A stretch of DNA of 64,000 nucleotides from Desulfosporosinus acididurans (GTDB lineage Bacteria > Bacillota > Desulfitobacteriia > Desulfitobacteriales > Desulfitobacteriaceae), in contig NZ_LDZY01000007.1 in assembly GCF_001029285.1 (NCBI RefSeq), positions 124,001 through 188,000 on the forward strand, in the 5' to 3' direction. The translations under genes and the position numbers were made by a program. The stretch's first letter is position 1. Each line of letters opens with the position of its first letter. Positions 47,632-59,221 of this stretch are shown here, piece by piece. Under the pieces are notes generated by a model. The model searched no databases. It had not been told where the DNA came from and saw nothing but the letters and a program-made list of their open reading frames with translations.

Positions 47632-47964
47632 ATGTTACCTGTTATCTATAAATTAGACCAAGACCGAACCCTTAAACTGGGGTTCCGAGGGATAGCTCGC
47701 TTAGAAAAAGTCTTTGGAGCCAACGTGGACAAATGGAATCTCAAAGAACTTTCTTTTGAACAAATTGCAGAAATTCTGGCCGAGGCACTGCGCCGTGAGA
47801 TACCAGATATTACTGCCGATAAGGTAATGGACCTGGTTGATGACTACAGCGACATTAATACGGCGATAAAAAAGACCTTTGAATGTATTAATGAGACTTT
47901 CGGAAAAAACGAGGAAACGGCGGTGGAGAAATCTCAGACAACACCGCCGGAGGTCGTGAACTAG
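47632..47964 (+). CDS. Tail assembly chaperone G
   Basis: This 110-aa helical protein (DRTLKLGFRGIARLEKVFGA, then ISFEQ-like LSFEQIAEILAEALR) is the unshifted product of the tail chaperone gene, lying between tube and tape measure genes as lambda gpG does. AAAGAATG follows GGAGGTAAA. A -1 frameshift at 47904-47910 diverts some ribosomes into the T frame to make the longer GT protein. It would coat the tape measure during tail assembly. Confidence 0.87.
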   Translation: MLPVIYKLDQDRTLKLGFRGIARLEKVFGANVDKWNLKELSFEQIAEILAEALRREIPDITADKVMDLVDDYSDINTAIKKTFECINETFGKNEETAVEKSQTTPPEVVN

Positions 47965-48521
47965 AGTGGGATTGGGATGAGGTTTATAAAGATGCCATCC
48001 GGGCTGGGATTCGTTCGAGTGAGTTCTGGGAGTTAACACCTGCCGAGTACAACCTCATCATGGAAGGCTATAAGGAACAACAACAAGAAACTATGTATCA
48101 TGATTTGAGAAACGCTTATTATACCGGTTGTTTTGCCCAGGTTGAAAAACCGAAGGAACTCTACGATAAAATTATTGAAAGCATCGAGTCCAAGCCGCAA
48201 AGTGGGGAAGAGATGTTTCATTTTCTTAAATCCATGGTATCTGGGAATGGGAATACCCAAGCATATCCTTTTGATTCTCAGTTTACGATACCACTGAAGC
48301 TCACGCCAGCCTTTGACGTGGGTGTTTTTAGTTATATATATTCCATGGATGAGGATAGTTTGGAGCTTTGTCTTCCCGATGTTTCATTATCTTTGAACGG
48401 TGAATTATTAAAGCCAGCCAATGGTATCTATCATCTTAAGCCAGGACTAGTAAAAATCAACTATGGCGGCCAAGTCTACACCATCATGCTCGTAAAAACC
48501 AGTAGCCGGGGAGGGAGGTAG
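47632..48521 (+). CDS. Tail assembly chaperone GT, -1 frameshift product
   Basis: Reading 93 codons of G, slipping back one base and continuing from 47910 gives a 296-aa protein. The T part starts RGNGGGEISDNTAGG and reaches the typical EFWELTPAEYNLIMEGYKEQ, then LRNAYYTGCFAQVEKPKELY. Unusually it goes on for about 100 residues more after that: a beta-rich segment (FTIPLKLTPAFDVGVFSYIY, LPDVSLSLNGELL, YGGQVYTIMLVKTS) not present in common GT proteins. No good start codon or ribosome binding site opens the second frame, so frameshifting is the likely route. Confidence 0.8.
47904..47949 (+). promoter_or_regulatory. Programmed -1 ribosomal frameshift signal
   Basis: The slippery heptamer A-AAA-AAC (47904-47910) is in the correct zero frame (X-XXY-YYZ). 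After 7 nt comes a perfect 8-bp GC-rich stem: CGGCGGTG (47918-47925) with CACCGCCG (47942-47949). This is the textbook arrangement. Confidence 0.93.
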
Positions 48522-51815: not shown

Positions 51816-53624
51816 ATGCTGAACGTCAGCCAGAAGTTCCATGATCATATAACGAAATTTCCGAGGGCCATTTCATCGATGGTGGAATTTGATATGGTGG
51901 ACGTGACGGCACAGGGTAATTGCACAGCAAGCTCAAACTCTGTTGAGGCCGTGGGGGCGGTTTCACAGGTCGCCGATGGGATGACTCAACCGGTCAGAAA
52001 ATACATGAGCGAGGAGCAGAATTATTTGCGCCTCGACGGTAGTTTCTTTACACCGCCAAAGAACACTGATTTGGACACTAGTGATTCGATAGGTTGGTGG
52101 AGTTCGATGGTATCGGATGCTTCGGCTAAGTTTCCTGCGTCAAGGCCACAGCTCACGCTCACGTTTTCGGAACCCTTCACAAGTCCTGGGTTGACCTTCA
52201 TTTTTTCACCGTTGACCGGGGACTATTGCGCGGAGGTTCATATCGTTACAACCGACGACGGAAATAATGTCAATAGTTACTTTGCTTTTCCCGATGCTCC
52301 GTCATACTTTTGGAGTCAACAGTTGAATAATATTACTCAGCTCGATATAACATTTTATTCCACGAATTATCCTTACCGAAGGGTGAGGGTTGCCGAGATT
52401 CTTTTTGGTGAACAGTTCCTATGGTCCGGTGACAATATTTTCGATTTAGATGTTCTGGAGGAATTTGACCCTCTGGTTAATAGTGCGCCCCCCAAAGAGG
52501 CTAGGGCTACTGTTGCCAACAACCTAAATAATTTTAATATCTATTTTCATAACCTGCAGAAAAAACAGGTCATGAAACCCTATCTTACGCTCTATTATGA
52601 TGACGGTTCTTTTGAGACGGTCCCTTTGGGAACCTACTATCTTTATAACTGGCGAAACGATCAGAACTTCATCTCATCCACACTTTATGCTCGAGACCTT
52701 CTAGACCTACTCTCCGGAACCATCTTTTATAAGTACACGTATTCCGGGGACCCGGTTTCCCTTTATGATTTGGCGATTTCAATCATTGAAGATTTCAAGT
52801 CTCAAACGAGATTAAATGTCGAGTATGTGATGGATACTGCGTTGCAATCCATTACCACCACCGGGGTTCTTTCGGCCTTGAATCATCACGATGCTTTGAT
52901 GTATGTCGCTCAGGCCGGTTTGGCTGTTCTCTATGTGGACAGATACAATGTGATGCGGATTACCCAATCCAAAAGTCAGGCACCGCTCACCCCAATGCCG
53001 TACACCGGCGAGCTAGCGTTGGACATGCAGGAAACTTATCCAAAAGTAGCCATACAAGACCCCTATAATTACTTCACCATCAATGTTTACTCCAATTCCC
53101 TGAGTACAAATACAGACACACTCTACACCGGGGCCGTGGCTGTTGATGGCGATTTAAGTATTTGGGTTAAGTATGCAAACCCTGCGAGTTCATCCTCATG
53201 TTCATGTTCGGTGGAAGGGGCCACCTTATTAAGCGTGGATTATTACACCGATTCAGCGTATGTGACGATCAATGGCTCCGAGAATGCCACAATAACCATC
53301 ACGGGCAATTCTGTGAGCAGCTCGGTTCTGCAATCGGTCCTGAATATTTCGGGTTCTCAACCCTTGAATGAGGTCGATTTGGATAACCCCTTGATTACTT
53401 CTCCGGCGATGGCCGCTGCCGTATTAAATTGGTACGCGTCCGAGTGTGGAAACGTCTATTTATATGAAGTGGAAAGCTGGATGGACCCCAGCATGGAGTG
53501 TGGGGACGTTATCTTTTGGGATTCTCAATACGCCACAGAAACGAAACAGGCCAAGATTATCCGTCAGGAATTTCGCTTTGATGGCACCTTATCCGGTACG
53601 ATCAATGGTAAGGGGTGGCCCTAG
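51816..53624 (+). CDS. Tail tip / baseplate hub-like protein
   Basis: This 602-aa protein follows the distal tail gene and has a hub-like beginning (ISSMVEFDMVDVTAQGNCTA) and a middle part reminiscent of tail-associated proteins (GTYYLYNWRNDQNFISSTLY, ARDLLDLLSGTIFYKYTYSG, SIIEDFKSQTRLNVEYVMDT, GVLSALNHHDALMYVAQAGL). It ends GKGWP. It probably connects the tube to receptor-binding parts. No peptidase motif is visible. Confidence 0.7.
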   Translation: MLNVSQKFHDHITKFPRAISSMVEFDMVDVTAQGNCTASSNSVEAVGAVSQVADGMTQPVRKYMSEEQNYLRLDGSFFTPPKNTDLDTSDSIGWWSSMVSDASAKFPASRPQLTLTFSEPFTSPGLTFIFSPLTGDYCAEVHIVTTDDGNNVNSYFAFPDAPSYFWSQQLNNITQLDITFYSTNYPYRRVRVAEILFGEQFLWSGDNIFDLDVLEEFDPLVNSAPPKEARATVANNLNNFNIYFHNLQKKQVMKPYLTLYYDDGSFETVPLGTYYLYNWRNDQNFISSTLYARDLLDLLSGTIFYKYTYSGDPVSLYDLAISIIEDFKSQTRLNVEYVMDTALQSITTTGVLSALNHHDALMYVAQAGLAVLYVDRYNVMRITQSKSQAPLTPMPYTGELALDMQETYPKVAIQDPYNYFTINVYSNSLSTNTDTLYTGAVAVDGDLSIWVKYANPASSSSCSCSVEGATLLSVDYYTDSAYVTINGSENATITITGNSVSSSVLQSVLNISGSQPLNEVDLDNPLITSPAMAAAVLNWYASECGNVYLYEVESWMDPSMECGDVIFWDSQYATETKQAKIIRQEFRFDGTLSGTINGKGWP

Positions 53625-53628
53625 TGGA

Positions 53629-54795
53629 TTGTCGGTCCACTATAATTCCGGTTTTCTTTTATCAAATAGTTCCTTTAGGAGCACCAGTTCATCTATCGGA
53701 CTCATGGCATCTGGCTTAATCGGTTCCATGAGTGATTTAAGTAATTATGGATTTAATCTTTTCATCAGTGTTTCCGGCCTGCTTTCCTCCGAGAGTCATC
53801 TTTTAAACTCCAGTGTAACGCTTACTTTGTATAAGTTGGGTAATTTGCACTCATCAAGCTCAGTCACCAATCTTGGTTATAATCTCAAGGTCAATGTTGC
53901 CGGTGGGGTCCAGTCCTCATCATCCTTACTGAATTCTGGCGCGGTTCTTTATGTTCATACTTCCGGTTATCTTGATTCCTCTAGTTCCTTGAGCGATAAC
54001 GGTTTATATTTGTACGAAGATAAGACCGGGTCCTTTGACTCTTATTCCTTTGTTTCAAATAATGGGTTGACGTTATTCGTAGATAAGAGTGGTAACATTG
54101 GCTCGACGAGTTCACTTTCGGATTCCGGCGAAACCATGACCTTATTTAAATCCGGCGCGATCAGCGCCCAGGGTTTGCTCACGAATGCTGGTTTATCTCT
54201 TACTGTTTATAAATCCAGCTCAGTCCTGTCAACCGGTGCTTTGACTAACAGTGGTTTGTCGCTGCTACTCAACGCAGCAAGTTCTGTTTCTTCAGCCGGC
54301 ATTGTTTCAAGTAATGGACTCCATTTATATCTCTATAAATCGGGCGTTATCTCATCGGGCAGCTCTGCTTTCGTTAATGGGTTAACGCTTTATTTATATA
54401 ACTATGGTTCAGTTATGTCCAGGAGTTCACTTTCCAATAATGGCTTAACTAGTTACGTTCATGGTTTAAGTTCCATTAGCTCACGGAGTGGATTATCCAA
54501 TACTGGCTTGACAGTTATGGCTCATGTTTCCGGTTTAATTGGCTCTCAAGGAACGGTTTCTAATCATGGCCTTAAGAAGATCGATCACGTTTCCGGCCCA
54601 GTTCTTTCGGTGAGCATTATGTCTAATAATTCAATGAGAGTTATCCTTCATAAATCCGGGACCATTAGTGATATAAGCTCATTGACGAACTCTGGAGTCA
54701 CGATCATCATTCCCGTGGTCCTCACGAACGCCGACGAAGAGCTTTATGTCGGTCAGAACTTCAACGTTGCCGGTATGACCTGGTGGCGGAACTAA
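53629..54795 (+). CDS. 21-residue tandem repeat protein of the tail region
   Basis: About 388 aa, of which some 350 are tandem repeats of exactly 21 residues in most copies, about 17 in all. The consensus is approximately G-x-I-x-S-x-S-S-L-S-N-x-G-L-x-L-x-V-x-K-S; examples are GNIGSTSSLSDSGETMTLFK and GAISAQGLLTNAGLSLTVYK. Alternating hydrophobic and Ser/Asn residues suggest a beta-solenoid or trimeric fibre. The last 24 residues (ELYVGQNFNVAGMTWWRN) differ and may be a cap. Start is uncertain: TTG 53629 (AAGGGGTGG at 53610-53618) is preferred over ATG 53605. It could be a fibre shaft or adhesin. Confidence 0.75.
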   Translation: MSVHYNSGFLLSNSSFRSTSSSIGLMASGLIGSMSDLSNYGFNLFISVSGLLSSESHLLNSSVTLTLYKLGNLHSSSSVTNLGYNLKVNVAGGVQSSSSLLNSGAVLYVHTSGYLDSSSSLSDNGLYLYEDKTGSFDSYSFVSNNGLTLFVDKSGNIGSTSSLSDSGETMTLFKSGAISAQGLLTNAGLSLTVYKSSSVLSTGALTNSGLSLLLNAASSVSSAGIVSSNGLHLYLYKSGVISSGSSAFVNGLTLYLYNYGSVMSRSSLSNNGLTSYVHGLSSISSRSGLSNTGLTVMAHVSGLIGSQGTVSNHGLKKIDHVSGPVLSVSIMSNNSMRVILHKSGTISDISSLTNSGVTIIIPVVLTNADEELYVGQNFNVAGMTWWRN

Positions 54796-54820: not shown

Positions 54821-55240
54821 ATGCCATTCACCTATTATGTTGACAATGCCCTGATTCAGCTCTTATTTAATGGTACGACGTTCACCGCATTGTCGAATGT
54901 TTACATCGGGCTTTCTACGACCACGCCTTCCCAAACCAAAGGCTCCACGACGCCTTATTGGAACTTCACCGAACCTTCCGGGAACGCTTATGCTCGGGTC
55001 CAGGTCGGAGCAACCACGGCCAATTTTCCGGCTCCGACAACTGGTTCGACTTCAAATAATGTAACCATTAGCTTTCCCCAGGCCACCGGTTCTTGGGGAA
55101 CCGTTACCTACTTTGGAATCTTCGATGCGTCAACCGGGGGCAACCTTTTGGGTTACGGTGCTCTCAATACTTCCCAAACCATCATATCGGGAAACGTATT
55201 GACCTTCTCTGCAAATCAAATCACACTTTCTAATAACTAA
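54821..55240 (+). CDS. Phage tail-associated beta protein
   Basis: This 139-aa protein (FTALSNVYIGLSTTTPSQTK, AYARVQVGATTANFPAPTTG, VTISFPQATGSWGTVTYFGI, then FDASTGGNLLGYGALNTSQT) matches a common virion protein type found beside tail fibre genes. Its exact role is not known. GAAGGAAGGAAG precedes the ATG. Confidence 0.65.
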   Translation: MPFTYYVDNALIQLLFNGTTFTALSNVYIGLSTTTPSQTKGSTTPYWNFTEPSGNAYARVQVGATTANFPAPTTGSTSNNVTISFPQATGSWGTVTYFGIFDASTGGNLLGYGALNTSQTIISGNVLTFSANQITLSNN

Positions 55241-55254
55241 GGTGGTGGGATTGG

Positions 55255-55668
55255 ATGTCTTGGCAAACTCCAAAAACTGATTGGAAACCCACGGATTATT
55301 TTAACTATACGGATTTTAATCGAATTGAGGGAAACGTCGAGGAGATTGCTTCTCTTCTTTTCATTTGTGGGTTCAGTCTTTCCCTGGTCATCGTGACCAC
55401 TCGTGACTATTCGACGATTGATTTTTATGACTCTCTTAATCGGATTGAGTCTAATGTTCAGGCTCTTGTTGATTGTTACGGTGTGGCTCCGGCCAATTGG
55501 ATAGAACCAAAGACGGACTGGACTTTTGATGTTCCTTTTTCCAATGTTGACACCAATCGTATGGAATCCAATCTTAACGGTCTTTACCAACTGGTGAAGT
55601 CATCCGTTATTGAATACCCTATGTGCGGTCAATCCCTGAGTATATGCGGATTGGGCTGGTACAACTGA
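55255..55668 (+). CDS. Phage hypothetical protein with internal duplication
   Basis: This 137-aa protein has a repeated W-x-x-PKTDW...N-x-x-D-x-NRxE-x-N pattern: TPKTDWKPTDYFNYTDFNRI at the start and EPKTDWTFDVPFSNVDTNRM near the middle, with a third weaker copy (IDFYDSLNRIESNVQALVD) between them. I have seen this repeat in tail genes of clostridial phages, function unknown. It lies 14 bp after the previous gene. Confidence 0.6.
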   Translation: MSWQTPKTDWKPTDYFNYTDFNRIEGNVEEIASLLFICGFSLSLVIVTTRDYSTIDFYDSLNRIESNVQALVDCYGVAPANWIEPKTDWTFDVPFSNVDTNRMESNLNGLYQLVKSSVIEYPMCGQSLSICGLGWYN

Positions 55669-57218: not shown

Positions 57219-57280
57219 CTATACCGAGGACGGGGTTATTCTTAGAACTTCGCCTTTTATTTTTGGGGAGGATAAAATTG

Positions 57281-58105
57281 ATGGCCTTTGATACCTTCAC
57301 AATTATCCTGAGTAATTATTGTAATCTTCGTTGCCCATTTTGCCTTCAGGCAGCTTCCGTCGCTGATGACGAGGTTTCCGCAGTAGACCTGATTAAATTT
57401 CTTTCTAAGTATCCGCTTCGGACATTGAAATTAACAGGCGGGGAGACTTTATCTGGGCCGGTTTTTCCTAAAACAAAATTGCTCTATGATTATGGGATTT
57501 CCAGAGGTGCAAGTATTCAGGTGAATACAAATGGGACCTTTGCGTTTAACGATAACCCCGACAAAGATTTACTAATGTTTCAGGTGAGCCTGGATGGTTT
57601 AAAGACCAAGCATGATTCTATTCGTGGCAAAGGGGTATTTGATAAGGCCATTAAGTTCATAAAAACCCAGCAAAAGCGCGGTTACAAACTAAAAATAATG
57701 AACGTCATAACGCCGGAAACAACAACCGGTGAATTAGGGGAGTTCGTAGATTATTGCCTGAGTACATTGAACATCCGGCCACACTTTCAGTTTGCCGCTC
57801 CTGTGGGGAGAGCAGTCGGTTTGAGACATGCTTTCGATCTAGAACGGATAAATTCCACGGTTGAATTTCTAATCGATAAAGGCTGCGATGAAACCACACG
57901 GCGTATTGCCTTTGTCGGTGATTGCTCGATTCCCCAGGGAAGGTCGAGTAATTTAGGAATTGATCATCACGGCAATCTCATTTCATGCCCCATCCTTCAA
58001 GACTACAAAATCGGAACCATTTACGAGGACTTGTCCGATTCAAAAATTCGCCAGAGGTTTGCTCGCTCCAAGGTCTCAAGATGCACATGCACATTCCCCC
58101 AATAA
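57281..58105 (+). CDS. Radical SAM protein
   Basis: This 274-aa enzyme should cleave S-adenosylmethionine to a 5'-deoxyadenosyl radical. The 4Fe-4S motif CxxxCxxC is YCNLRCPFC (Cys 14, 18, 21), followed by the TGGETL SAM-binding motif, then FQVSLDGLKTKHDSIRG. The C-terminus has further Cys (FVGDCSIPQG, LISCPILQ, SRCTCTF), like a short SPASM-type second cluster site. GGGGAGG (57265-57271) precedes ATG 57281. It lies between tail and lysis genes, 18 bp before a permease gene. No peptide substrate gene is evident, so the substrate is unknown. Confidence 0.88.
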   Translation: MAFDTFTIILSNYCNLRCPFCLQAASVADDEVSAVDLIKFLSKYPLRTLKLTGGETLSGPVFPKTKLLYDYGISRGASIQVNTNGTFAFNDNPDKDLLMFQVSLDGLKTKHDSIRGKGVFDKAIKFIKTQQKRGYKLKIMNVITPETTTGELGEFVDYCLSTLNIRPHFQFAAPVGRAVGLRHAFDLERINSTVEFLIDKGCDETTRRIAFVGDCSIPQGRSSNLGIDHHGNLISCPILQDYKIGTIYEDLSDSKIRQRFARSKVSRCTCTFPQ

Positions 58106-58123
58106 AAGGAGAGATTAGACGTT

Positions 58124-59221
58124 ATGACCTTTGCGAGTTTTGGCTTGAATCTGGATCTGTTTTCTGCTTTGTTTTTTAATGTGCTTGTCATGCTTTCCTT
58201 AACTACAATGATATTAGGGCTTCAAAAAACCGGAGGGTTGGTCTATTTAACCAAACCGTTTGATAGGTTCAAAACGTCGCGTTCTCAAGCCATCGCCTGG
58301 TTCGTTTTATCGGTGGTTTTTTCCGGCCTCACGACGAACTTGATTTTAGCCAATATCCTTATTCCAATGGCTGTTGTTTATGCCAAAGAGCGAACTATGG
58401 ATCCGGTGGAGTTGAACCTCGCGGTCCTATTAGGAATCCTGGCGGGTACAGAATTTTTTCCTTATGGCGGCGGGGATACGATCATCGAGAACACGTTAAT
58501 CAGTCATGATCTCCATCGACCTTTAGGACTTCTTACCTGGGGCCAGATGATGTGGGTACCGACCATTTTGGCCTGTTTGATAACCGGCTTGTGGCTGGCC
58601 TATAAGGTTGTTAACAATAAAACACTCACGGAATTCAAGACCGAGGTTCGCGGATCCGCAGCGATGTTGATGGAATTCATGTTATTGATTGCCGGTGTTT
58701 ATTTAACGTTTCGCACGAAGCTTCAGGGATATGTGGTTCTCGTCGCGTTCCTTTCGGCCCTTGTATCCAGGCTCCCCGCAGCCAAACTTAAAACACTGCC
58801 ATTCAAAGCAATTATTTATTGGTCCTTGAGTTTGATCCTGGGGAAGATCCTGAGTGTTCTTTTAAAAACCCATGTTCATTTCACAATTCCAAGCAATGTT
58901 TACTCCTTCGGGGGTATTTTCTTATTTATAGCGGTTGTCTTCATGATTTCTAATTTCCTGACGAGAAGTGCTTTATCGTCAATGATCATGCCTTTGGTTT
59001 TGGCGAGTGCGGTCCCGGATAAACTTTGGTTATCGGCTTTGGCGATTAAAAGTTTTTCTCTGGGGTATCTGTTGATATTCTCTGACTCAGCCAATGTCGT
59101 TTCAGTCGGTTATGGGCTAAGGCAATCAAAACTATTGAGAATCGGTTTGCCGATTGCCCTGATGCAGATGGCGGCCTATATCCTATATTTCTATTTTACA
59201 AAGACAGTTTTGACACCTTAA
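58124..59221 (+). CDS. Ion-transporter-superfamily permease
   Basis: This 365-aa membrane protein has about ten helices. FSGLTTNLILANILIPMAVV and LGILAGTEFFPYGGGDTIIE resemble the re-entrant/conserved segments of SLC13/ArsB-type (IT superfamily) transporters, and the second half repeats the pattern near SNFLTRSALSSMIMPLVLAS. It overlaps no gene and follows the radical SAM gene by 18 bp (AAAGGAGAG). Together they look like a cargo operon. Substrate unknown; a dicarboxylate or anion is typical for the superfamily. Confidence 0.75.
   Translation: MTFASFGLNLDLFSALFFNVLVMLSLTTMILGLQKTGGLVYLTKPFDRFKTSRSQAIAWFVLSVVFSGLTTNLILANILIPMAVVYAKERTMDPVELNLAVLLGILAGTEFFPYGGGDTIIENTLISHDLHRPLGLLTWGQMMWVPTILACLITGLWLAYKVVNNKTLTEFKTEVRGSAAMLMEFMLLIAGVYLTFRTKLQGYVVLVAFLSALVSRLPAAKLKTLPFKAIIYWSLSLILGKILSVLLKTHVHFTIPSNVYSFGGIFLFIAVVFMISNFLTRSALSSMIMPLVLASAVPDKLWLSALAIKSFSLGYLLIFSDSANVVSVGYGLRQSKLLRIGLPIALMQMAAYILYFYFTKTVLTP

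Follow-up and report, generated by a model that had tools for sequence, protein, structure and literature searches.

A strictly periodic array of 21-residue repeats in a prophage of Desulfosporosinus acididurans (host genome, 4.6 Mb) is best explained, at chances that we consider evenly balanced, as an adhesin-like C-terminal extension of the phage tail-tip protein that is made by +1 frameshifting. The array lies within the 64,000 nucleotides of contig NZ_LDZY01000007.1 that were analyzed as a whole (hereafter the window) and is read in the +1 frame relative to the tail-tip gene, which ends on a slip-type CCC-stop sequence. A relative from the same genus encodes the tail-tip protein and the repeat as one uninterrupted frame, and the end of the repeat protein resembles the end of a neighboring tail protein (Table 1). 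Building on these observed features, we infer the occurrence and the rate of the slip, the fold of the extension and its role in adsorption. A functional tie between repeat and tail tip is more probable than any single mechanism by which the repeat might be produced.

Table 1. Features of the prophage tail module that bear on the repeat array (positions in the window).
Feature	Position	Strand	Basis and remarks
Tail-tip (hub) protein, 602 aa, phrog_13879	51816..53624	+	PHROG match E 4.8e-84; located after the tape measure and DUF6711 genes; presumed carrier of the repeats
Candidate +1 frameshift site	53610..53625	+	AAGGGG 53610-53615, spacer TGG (3 nt), slip codon CCC 53619-53621, stop TAG 53622-53624, T
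+1-frame extension	53623..54795	+	390 codons from AGT 53623 plus stop; takes in the ORF from TTG 53629; homologous fusion in relative
Repeat ORF (TTG start, 388 aa)	53629-54795	+	Mechanical open reading frame
17 tandem 21-residue units	53647..54717	+	Pattern S-G-x-[IVL]-x-S-x-[SG]-x-L-[ST]-N-x-G-L-x-L-x-[VL]-x-K; period 21 far beyond 300 shuffles
C-terminal cap, 25 aa	54718..54792	+	GQ-x-[LF]-x-[IV]-x-G-x-x-W-x(1,2)-N motif; C-terminus comparison
Gp80-family protein (PF23140)	54821..55240	+	Pfam E 1.6e-38; adjoins the repeat in window and relative
phrog_18725 tail protein	55255..55668	+	PHROG E 1.5e-31; bears cysteine-containing form of the cap

Under the frameshifting model, most ribosomes would stop at TAG 53622 and release the plain 602-residue tail-tip protein. 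A minority would pause at this stop while tRNA-Pro occupies CCC, shift by +1 onto CCT and read on through the repeats, yielding a 992-residue form. In this longer product, a beta-helix would hold the cap off the tail tip, beside the Gp80-family protein.

The prophage genes follow the order tail tube, tail chaperone, tape measure, DUF6711, phrog_13879, repeat, Gp80, phrog_18725 and further fibre-like genes. The PHROG of the 602-residue protein carries no function of its own, and its position past the tape measure, together with the family matches of its relatives, suggests that it is the tail tip. Among the nine relatives scanned, four and three match two tail families, three match a minor-tail family and one matches a host-range/adsorption family. 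A profile search of the PDB with the hub returned one row at E 0.59, which was not used. Distant homologues also occur within larger frames, one of 1057 residues with an insertion between two matched parts (L134 in G433) and one of 1850 residues (L133 in G329).

The repeat ORF consists of 6 leader residues, the 17 units (residues 7-363) and the cap (residues 364-388). Every unit is exactly 21 residues long, with no indel between units. Self-similarity of the protein under BLOSUM62, computed without the last 25 residues, is 1.51 at lag 21, 1.29 at lag 42 and 1.23 at lag 63, and the highest score reached by any of 300 shuffles at any lag from 5 to 69 is -0.01. When the window's stop-to-stop frames of 120 aa or more were screened for periodicity, this one alone exceeded the cut-off. 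Positions kept across the last 16 units are G2 (13 units), I/V/L/F4 (16), S6 (14), S/G8 (16), L/V10 (14), N12 (12), G14 (14) and L15 (9). Hydrophobic residues alternate in two stretches of the unit, with glycine between them.

The last 16 units share a mean pairwise identity of 34% at the amino-acid level and 45% at the nucleotide level. Among pairs of identical residues (eight residue types), 248 of 810 use the same codon, against 238 expected. Same-codon pairs are thus no commoner than expected, so that recent copying has left no trace and recent tandem duplication was rejected as the origin of the array; the codon pattern suggests that the array is old and that its length is held under constraint. 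An earlier sequence-only reading of this DNA had proposed about 17 exact 21-residue repeats whose period is maintained by structure and not by recent copying.

We next consider the junction, where the tail-tip gene ends GGT AAG GGG TGG CCC TAG T and the TTG of the repeat ORF follows 4 bases past the stop. Our survey of ORF ends used mechanical ORFs of 150 aa or more, 616 distinct ones in total, from both strands of the window and the comparison loci, with 34 loci judged redundant excluded. CCC directly precedes the stop at two of these ends, that of the tail-tip ORF (+1 extension of 390 codons) and that of another ORF whose extension is 6 codons. The combination of CCC or CTT before the stop with a strong upstream purine core likewise occurs twice, at the tail-tip ORF and at an ORF with a 49-codon extension. 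Long +1 frames past stops are not rare in themselves, reaching at least 390 codons at 13 of the 616 ends and at least 100 codons at 75. Among 19 unfused hub ends (the fused G028:C660, truncated G020 and aberrant G318 being excluded, and G195 being read at a separate frame with a hub-like C-terminus), CCC-stop is found once, in the window. Purine runs like AAGGGG are present at other hub ends as well, apparently as the ribosome-binding site of the next gene, and so this element carries little weight alone. CCC is not a rare codon here, accounting for 55 of 204 proline codons in 12 genes, and a rare slip codon is a trait of the SPP1 case, perhaps not an essential one. Folding of the RNA downstream of the slip site brought out no stimulator (z 0.10; 97 of 200 shuffles folded equally well).

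Comparable sites have been described elsewhere. In SPP1, a +1 slip at CCCUAA gives rise to gp17.1*, with tail-tube proteins in a 3:1 ratio and an FN3-like part added (PMC6316719), and a Listeria phage tail gene uses CCC_UGA for a +1 extension (PMC5009743). The window shares with SPP1 gp17.1/gp17.1* and the Listeria phage Tsh a tail structural gene that ends in CCC-stop and is prolonged by an open +1 frame. It differs from them in its predicted carrier, a tail-tip protein in place of the tail tube, in the nature of the added part, a 21-residue repeat, and in its UAG stop. The CCC-stop, the long open +1 frame and the relative fused in frame agree with an extension of the SPP1 gp17.1* type. In prfB, an SD-like element lies three bases ahead of the slip codon (PMC12421855), and the same 3-nt spacing is seen in the window's AAGGGG-TGG-CCC. 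The window has CCC and not CTT, TAG and not TGA, and T and not C as the next base, and RF2 autoregulation of the prfB type is not expected at its TAG. The candidate site joins a phage slip codon with prfB spacing.

The fused relative resides on G028:C660, a contig of 79,284 bases from the peat-soil metagenome genome Desulfosporosinus sp. SbF1. Its hub homologue is 64% identical to that of the window, has no stop at the junction and reads in frame into repeat units. The extension contains three units of the NGSGSISSTSSLVDNG type, each exactly 21 residues from the next, and then four Big_2 domains, with one further unit between the first and second of these domains. When the window product is joined over the CCC slip, its alignment with the relative has a lone gap of 2 residues at the junction, after which it is gapless for two full units; opposite the glycine codon between the stop and the TTG, the relative also has glycine. 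Phage Ig-like domains are appended via +1, -1 or in-frame joining (PMC5009743). The relative resembles such Ig-like-extended proteins in carrying Big_2 domains beside the repeat, whereas Pfam finds none in the window copy, which has the repeat only. In a different frame past the fused 1041-residue frame of the relative (L020 9826-10026), an apparent Ig-like domain end and one more 21-residue unit are present, which suggests that the relative's extension is itself disrupted.

The distribution of the repeat across the genus links it to its downstream neighbor. A Gp80 gene adjoins the repeat in both same-genus loci that have it (Pfam E 4.2e-15 in G028:C660), and phrog_18725 directly follows the tail-tip gene in all three loci without it (G008, G028:C608 and G028:C880), where no ORF of at least 100 aa is listed between the two genes and the G028:C880 hub copy has an internal stop. 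The repeat and Gp80 thus look like a single exchangeable cassette. The best PHROGs family for the Gp80 protein is phrog_240, a head protein (E 2e-23); its Pfam name comes from a podophage fibre protein. A tail-region ORF of the repeat-free G028:C608 locus (L022 5070-5573) begins with a VDKVTVVDEVTQVLTIDEVTKV-like short repeat.

The sequence-only reading had treated the array as a protein with a gene of its own. In a rival explanation built on such a separate gene, its start at TTG 53629 would be used by ribosomes finishing the tail-tip gene, and the resulting fibre would dock through its cap to the partner of the phrog_18725 C-terminus. We regard this scenario as a serious alternative, though less likely than frameshifting. 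A purine run that would make a good ribosome-binding sequence lies about 10 nt upstream of the TTG, its duplex energy resembles that of neighboring starts and the spacing at the 22 starts examined spans 2 to 16 nt, so that initiation at the TTG is possible. The repeat-free relatives, in which the next tail gene comes directly after the hub, and the cap similarity, which offers a docking tag, also accord with a separate gene. However, the protein read from the TTG has six residues ahead of the units, hence no N-terminal attachment domain. The repeat is also fused to the hub in G028:C660, and the CCC-stop would have to be a coincidence, as would the glycine codon that precedes the TTG. The reading frame probably starts upstream of TTG 53629, and an extension of the tail-tip protein fits the CCC-stop junction and the relative's fusion better than an independent fibre does.

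It is improbable that a one-base change broke a fused tail-tip gene and left the repeat as a decaying remnant or a sequencing error, an idea favored by the fused form of G028:C660 and by the disrupted piece past that ORF, but opposed by a fully open 388-codon frame, 17 units that keep their length and an intact cap, given which any break must be recent. The same element is present in IMG/VR as a 46,176-bp viral contig whose DNA is identical over the three stretches compared; this copy may be the same assembly, and, with one relative known, a frame break through sequencing or mutation is compatible with these data.

The cap had been described as a distinct, WW-containing element, but it is a variant of a motif also seen at the C-terminus of the phrog_18725 protein, which is encoded two genes further on, and the WW is not its conserved part. 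The cap aligns over 11-16 residues with the C-termini of five phrog_18725-type proteins from the genus. In a comparison picked after the similarity was seen, its mean score of 39.2 ranks first among 4819 distinct mechanical-frame C-termini (the five phrog_18725-type caps set aside; second place, 34.2), and none of 5000 shuffled caps reaches it. Both cysteines of the phrog_18725-type caps are replaced in the repeat protein. Across 45 genomes of the family, the cap motif gave seven strong matches (E <=1.5e-9; next, E 0.04), all C-terminal in tail-module proteins, six of them being part of the query and G028:C266 the sole independent find. Relatives of phrog_18725 occur at 54 IMG/VR loci, and a scan of 51 of these for cap sharing between neighboring tail genes gave no clear case (score of the best pair, 33). 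The similarity suggests that the cap and the phrog_18725 C-terminus share a docking or tip function. The phrog_18725 protein contains an NRIE/NRME motif three times, and its relatives in other phages differ widely in their C-terminal tails.

Structure prediction with AlphaFold2 on six units (four-row alignment) produced a beta-helix with about three strands per unit and a pLDDT of 75.1 (other models 63.9, 52.7, 52.0 and 39.7). In this model, each 21-residue unit is probably one coil of a slender beta-helix. The earlier suggestion of a beta-solenoid or trimeric fibre shaft is therefore upheld in part: the six-unit monomer supports the solenoid at moderate confidence, and the full-length protein is predicted poorly (mean pLDDT 55.2). 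AlphaFold2 is known to favor solenoids for perfect repeats (PMC11795689), a concern that is lessened, though not removed, by units that are only 34% identical.

In second-look structural alignments, the six-unit model superposes on 4wa0 (Z 12.1, rmsd 2.4, 117 residues aligned), 6n2b (Z 11.9, rmsd 2.2, 117 aligned) and 4kh3 (Z 11.3, rmsd 2.7, 115 aligned). More generally, right-handed beta-helices, including the tapirin adhesin, 4kh3, pectate lyases and truncated hemolysin A, fit the model with rmsd 2.2-3.0 and Z 9-12, values that for repeats may reflect merely a common arrangement. The two rows of highest Z are LpxD-type chains at rmsd near 12, which is no real superposition; we take these chains to be left-handed and the former group to be right-handed. 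Foldseek returned nothing at E 0.001 in the PDB (best 0.14) or in BFVD, where the best match was an uncharacterised Caudovirales protein (E 2.5e-3, TM 0.64). The modeled superposition thus points to a likeness with right-handed beta-helix adhesins such as the tapirin C-terminal domain and the self-associating 4kh3, one not accompanied by a significant Foldseek or sequence match, and the window protein differs from them in its exact 21-residue period and phage tail context.

A trimeric shaft, for example a triple beta-spiral, would fit every mechanism considered above, and we think it unlikely in comparison with a single-chain beta-helix. The alternating hydrophobic stretches with glycine between them are suited to such a shaft, and the lone unit between Ig-like domains in G028:C660 would hardly be stable as a single solenoid coil. 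On the other side, the constant Ser, Asn and Gly positions would suit the stacked ladders of a beta-helix, and the monomer model comes out as one. The adenovirus repeat has 15 residues, and the difference from the 21-residue unit counts against a triple beta-spiral.

Searches for a wider family agree with the earlier view that the repeat has no named one. The repeat retrieved no family from Pfam at E 1, no PHROGs family (best E 0.18), no significant match among PDB sequences and nothing at E 1 among 50,697 phage records, and in IMG/VR it found the identical prophage alone. With the relative's units as query, IMG/VR gave no match and the genome contigs gave G028:C660 alone. At E 0.01, a search of 100 relatives with the repeat protein gave matches in three (its own genome, G028 and one chance match). 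The repeat profile hit 3 of 398 genomes of the phylum at E 0.001 (its own and two chance matches) and 2 of 45 genomes of the family at E 0.05 (its own and G028). Candidates in G368, G416 and G054, and L040 in G028:C737, were rejected as chance matches, since they lie in unrelated-looking proteins or antisense frames. Our literature search found no report of a 21-residue repeat of this kind or of a frameshifted tail-tip protein, which does not prove that none exists.

Taken a step further, frameshifting may determine how many receptor-binding arms each tail has, such that only the lesser part of the tail-tip subunits would bear a beta-helix arm of 17 coils ending in the shared cap; in the same reading, the repeat would represent a previously undescribed 21-residue family. 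We advance these two proposals together, tentatively and at somewhat less than even likelihood. Should the slip occur, +1 frameshifting, which the literature cited here describes for phage tail-tube and capsid proteins, would also arm a tail tip, and a phage could mix bare and armed tips without needing two genes. The analysis also brings to light a strict 21-residue repeat that no family model in Pfam, PHROGs or PDB sequences was found to cover. It further exposes an annotation trap in which the repeat would be labelled a stand-alone hypothetical protein.

Two other parts of the module are of note. The tail chaperone gene, whose Phage_TAC_12 match falls below the cut-off, and the next -1 frame (window 47632-48521) resemble a lambda-type G/GT pair. 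An A_AAA_AAC slip site at 47904-47910 in this region may reflect a second, -1 frameshift in the same tail module. Further downstream, the stretch between the fibre-like genes and an amidase gene (57263-59221) encodes a radical SAM protein along with a membrane protein whose CitMHS match is sub-threshold, an unusual cargo for a tail-lysis interval.
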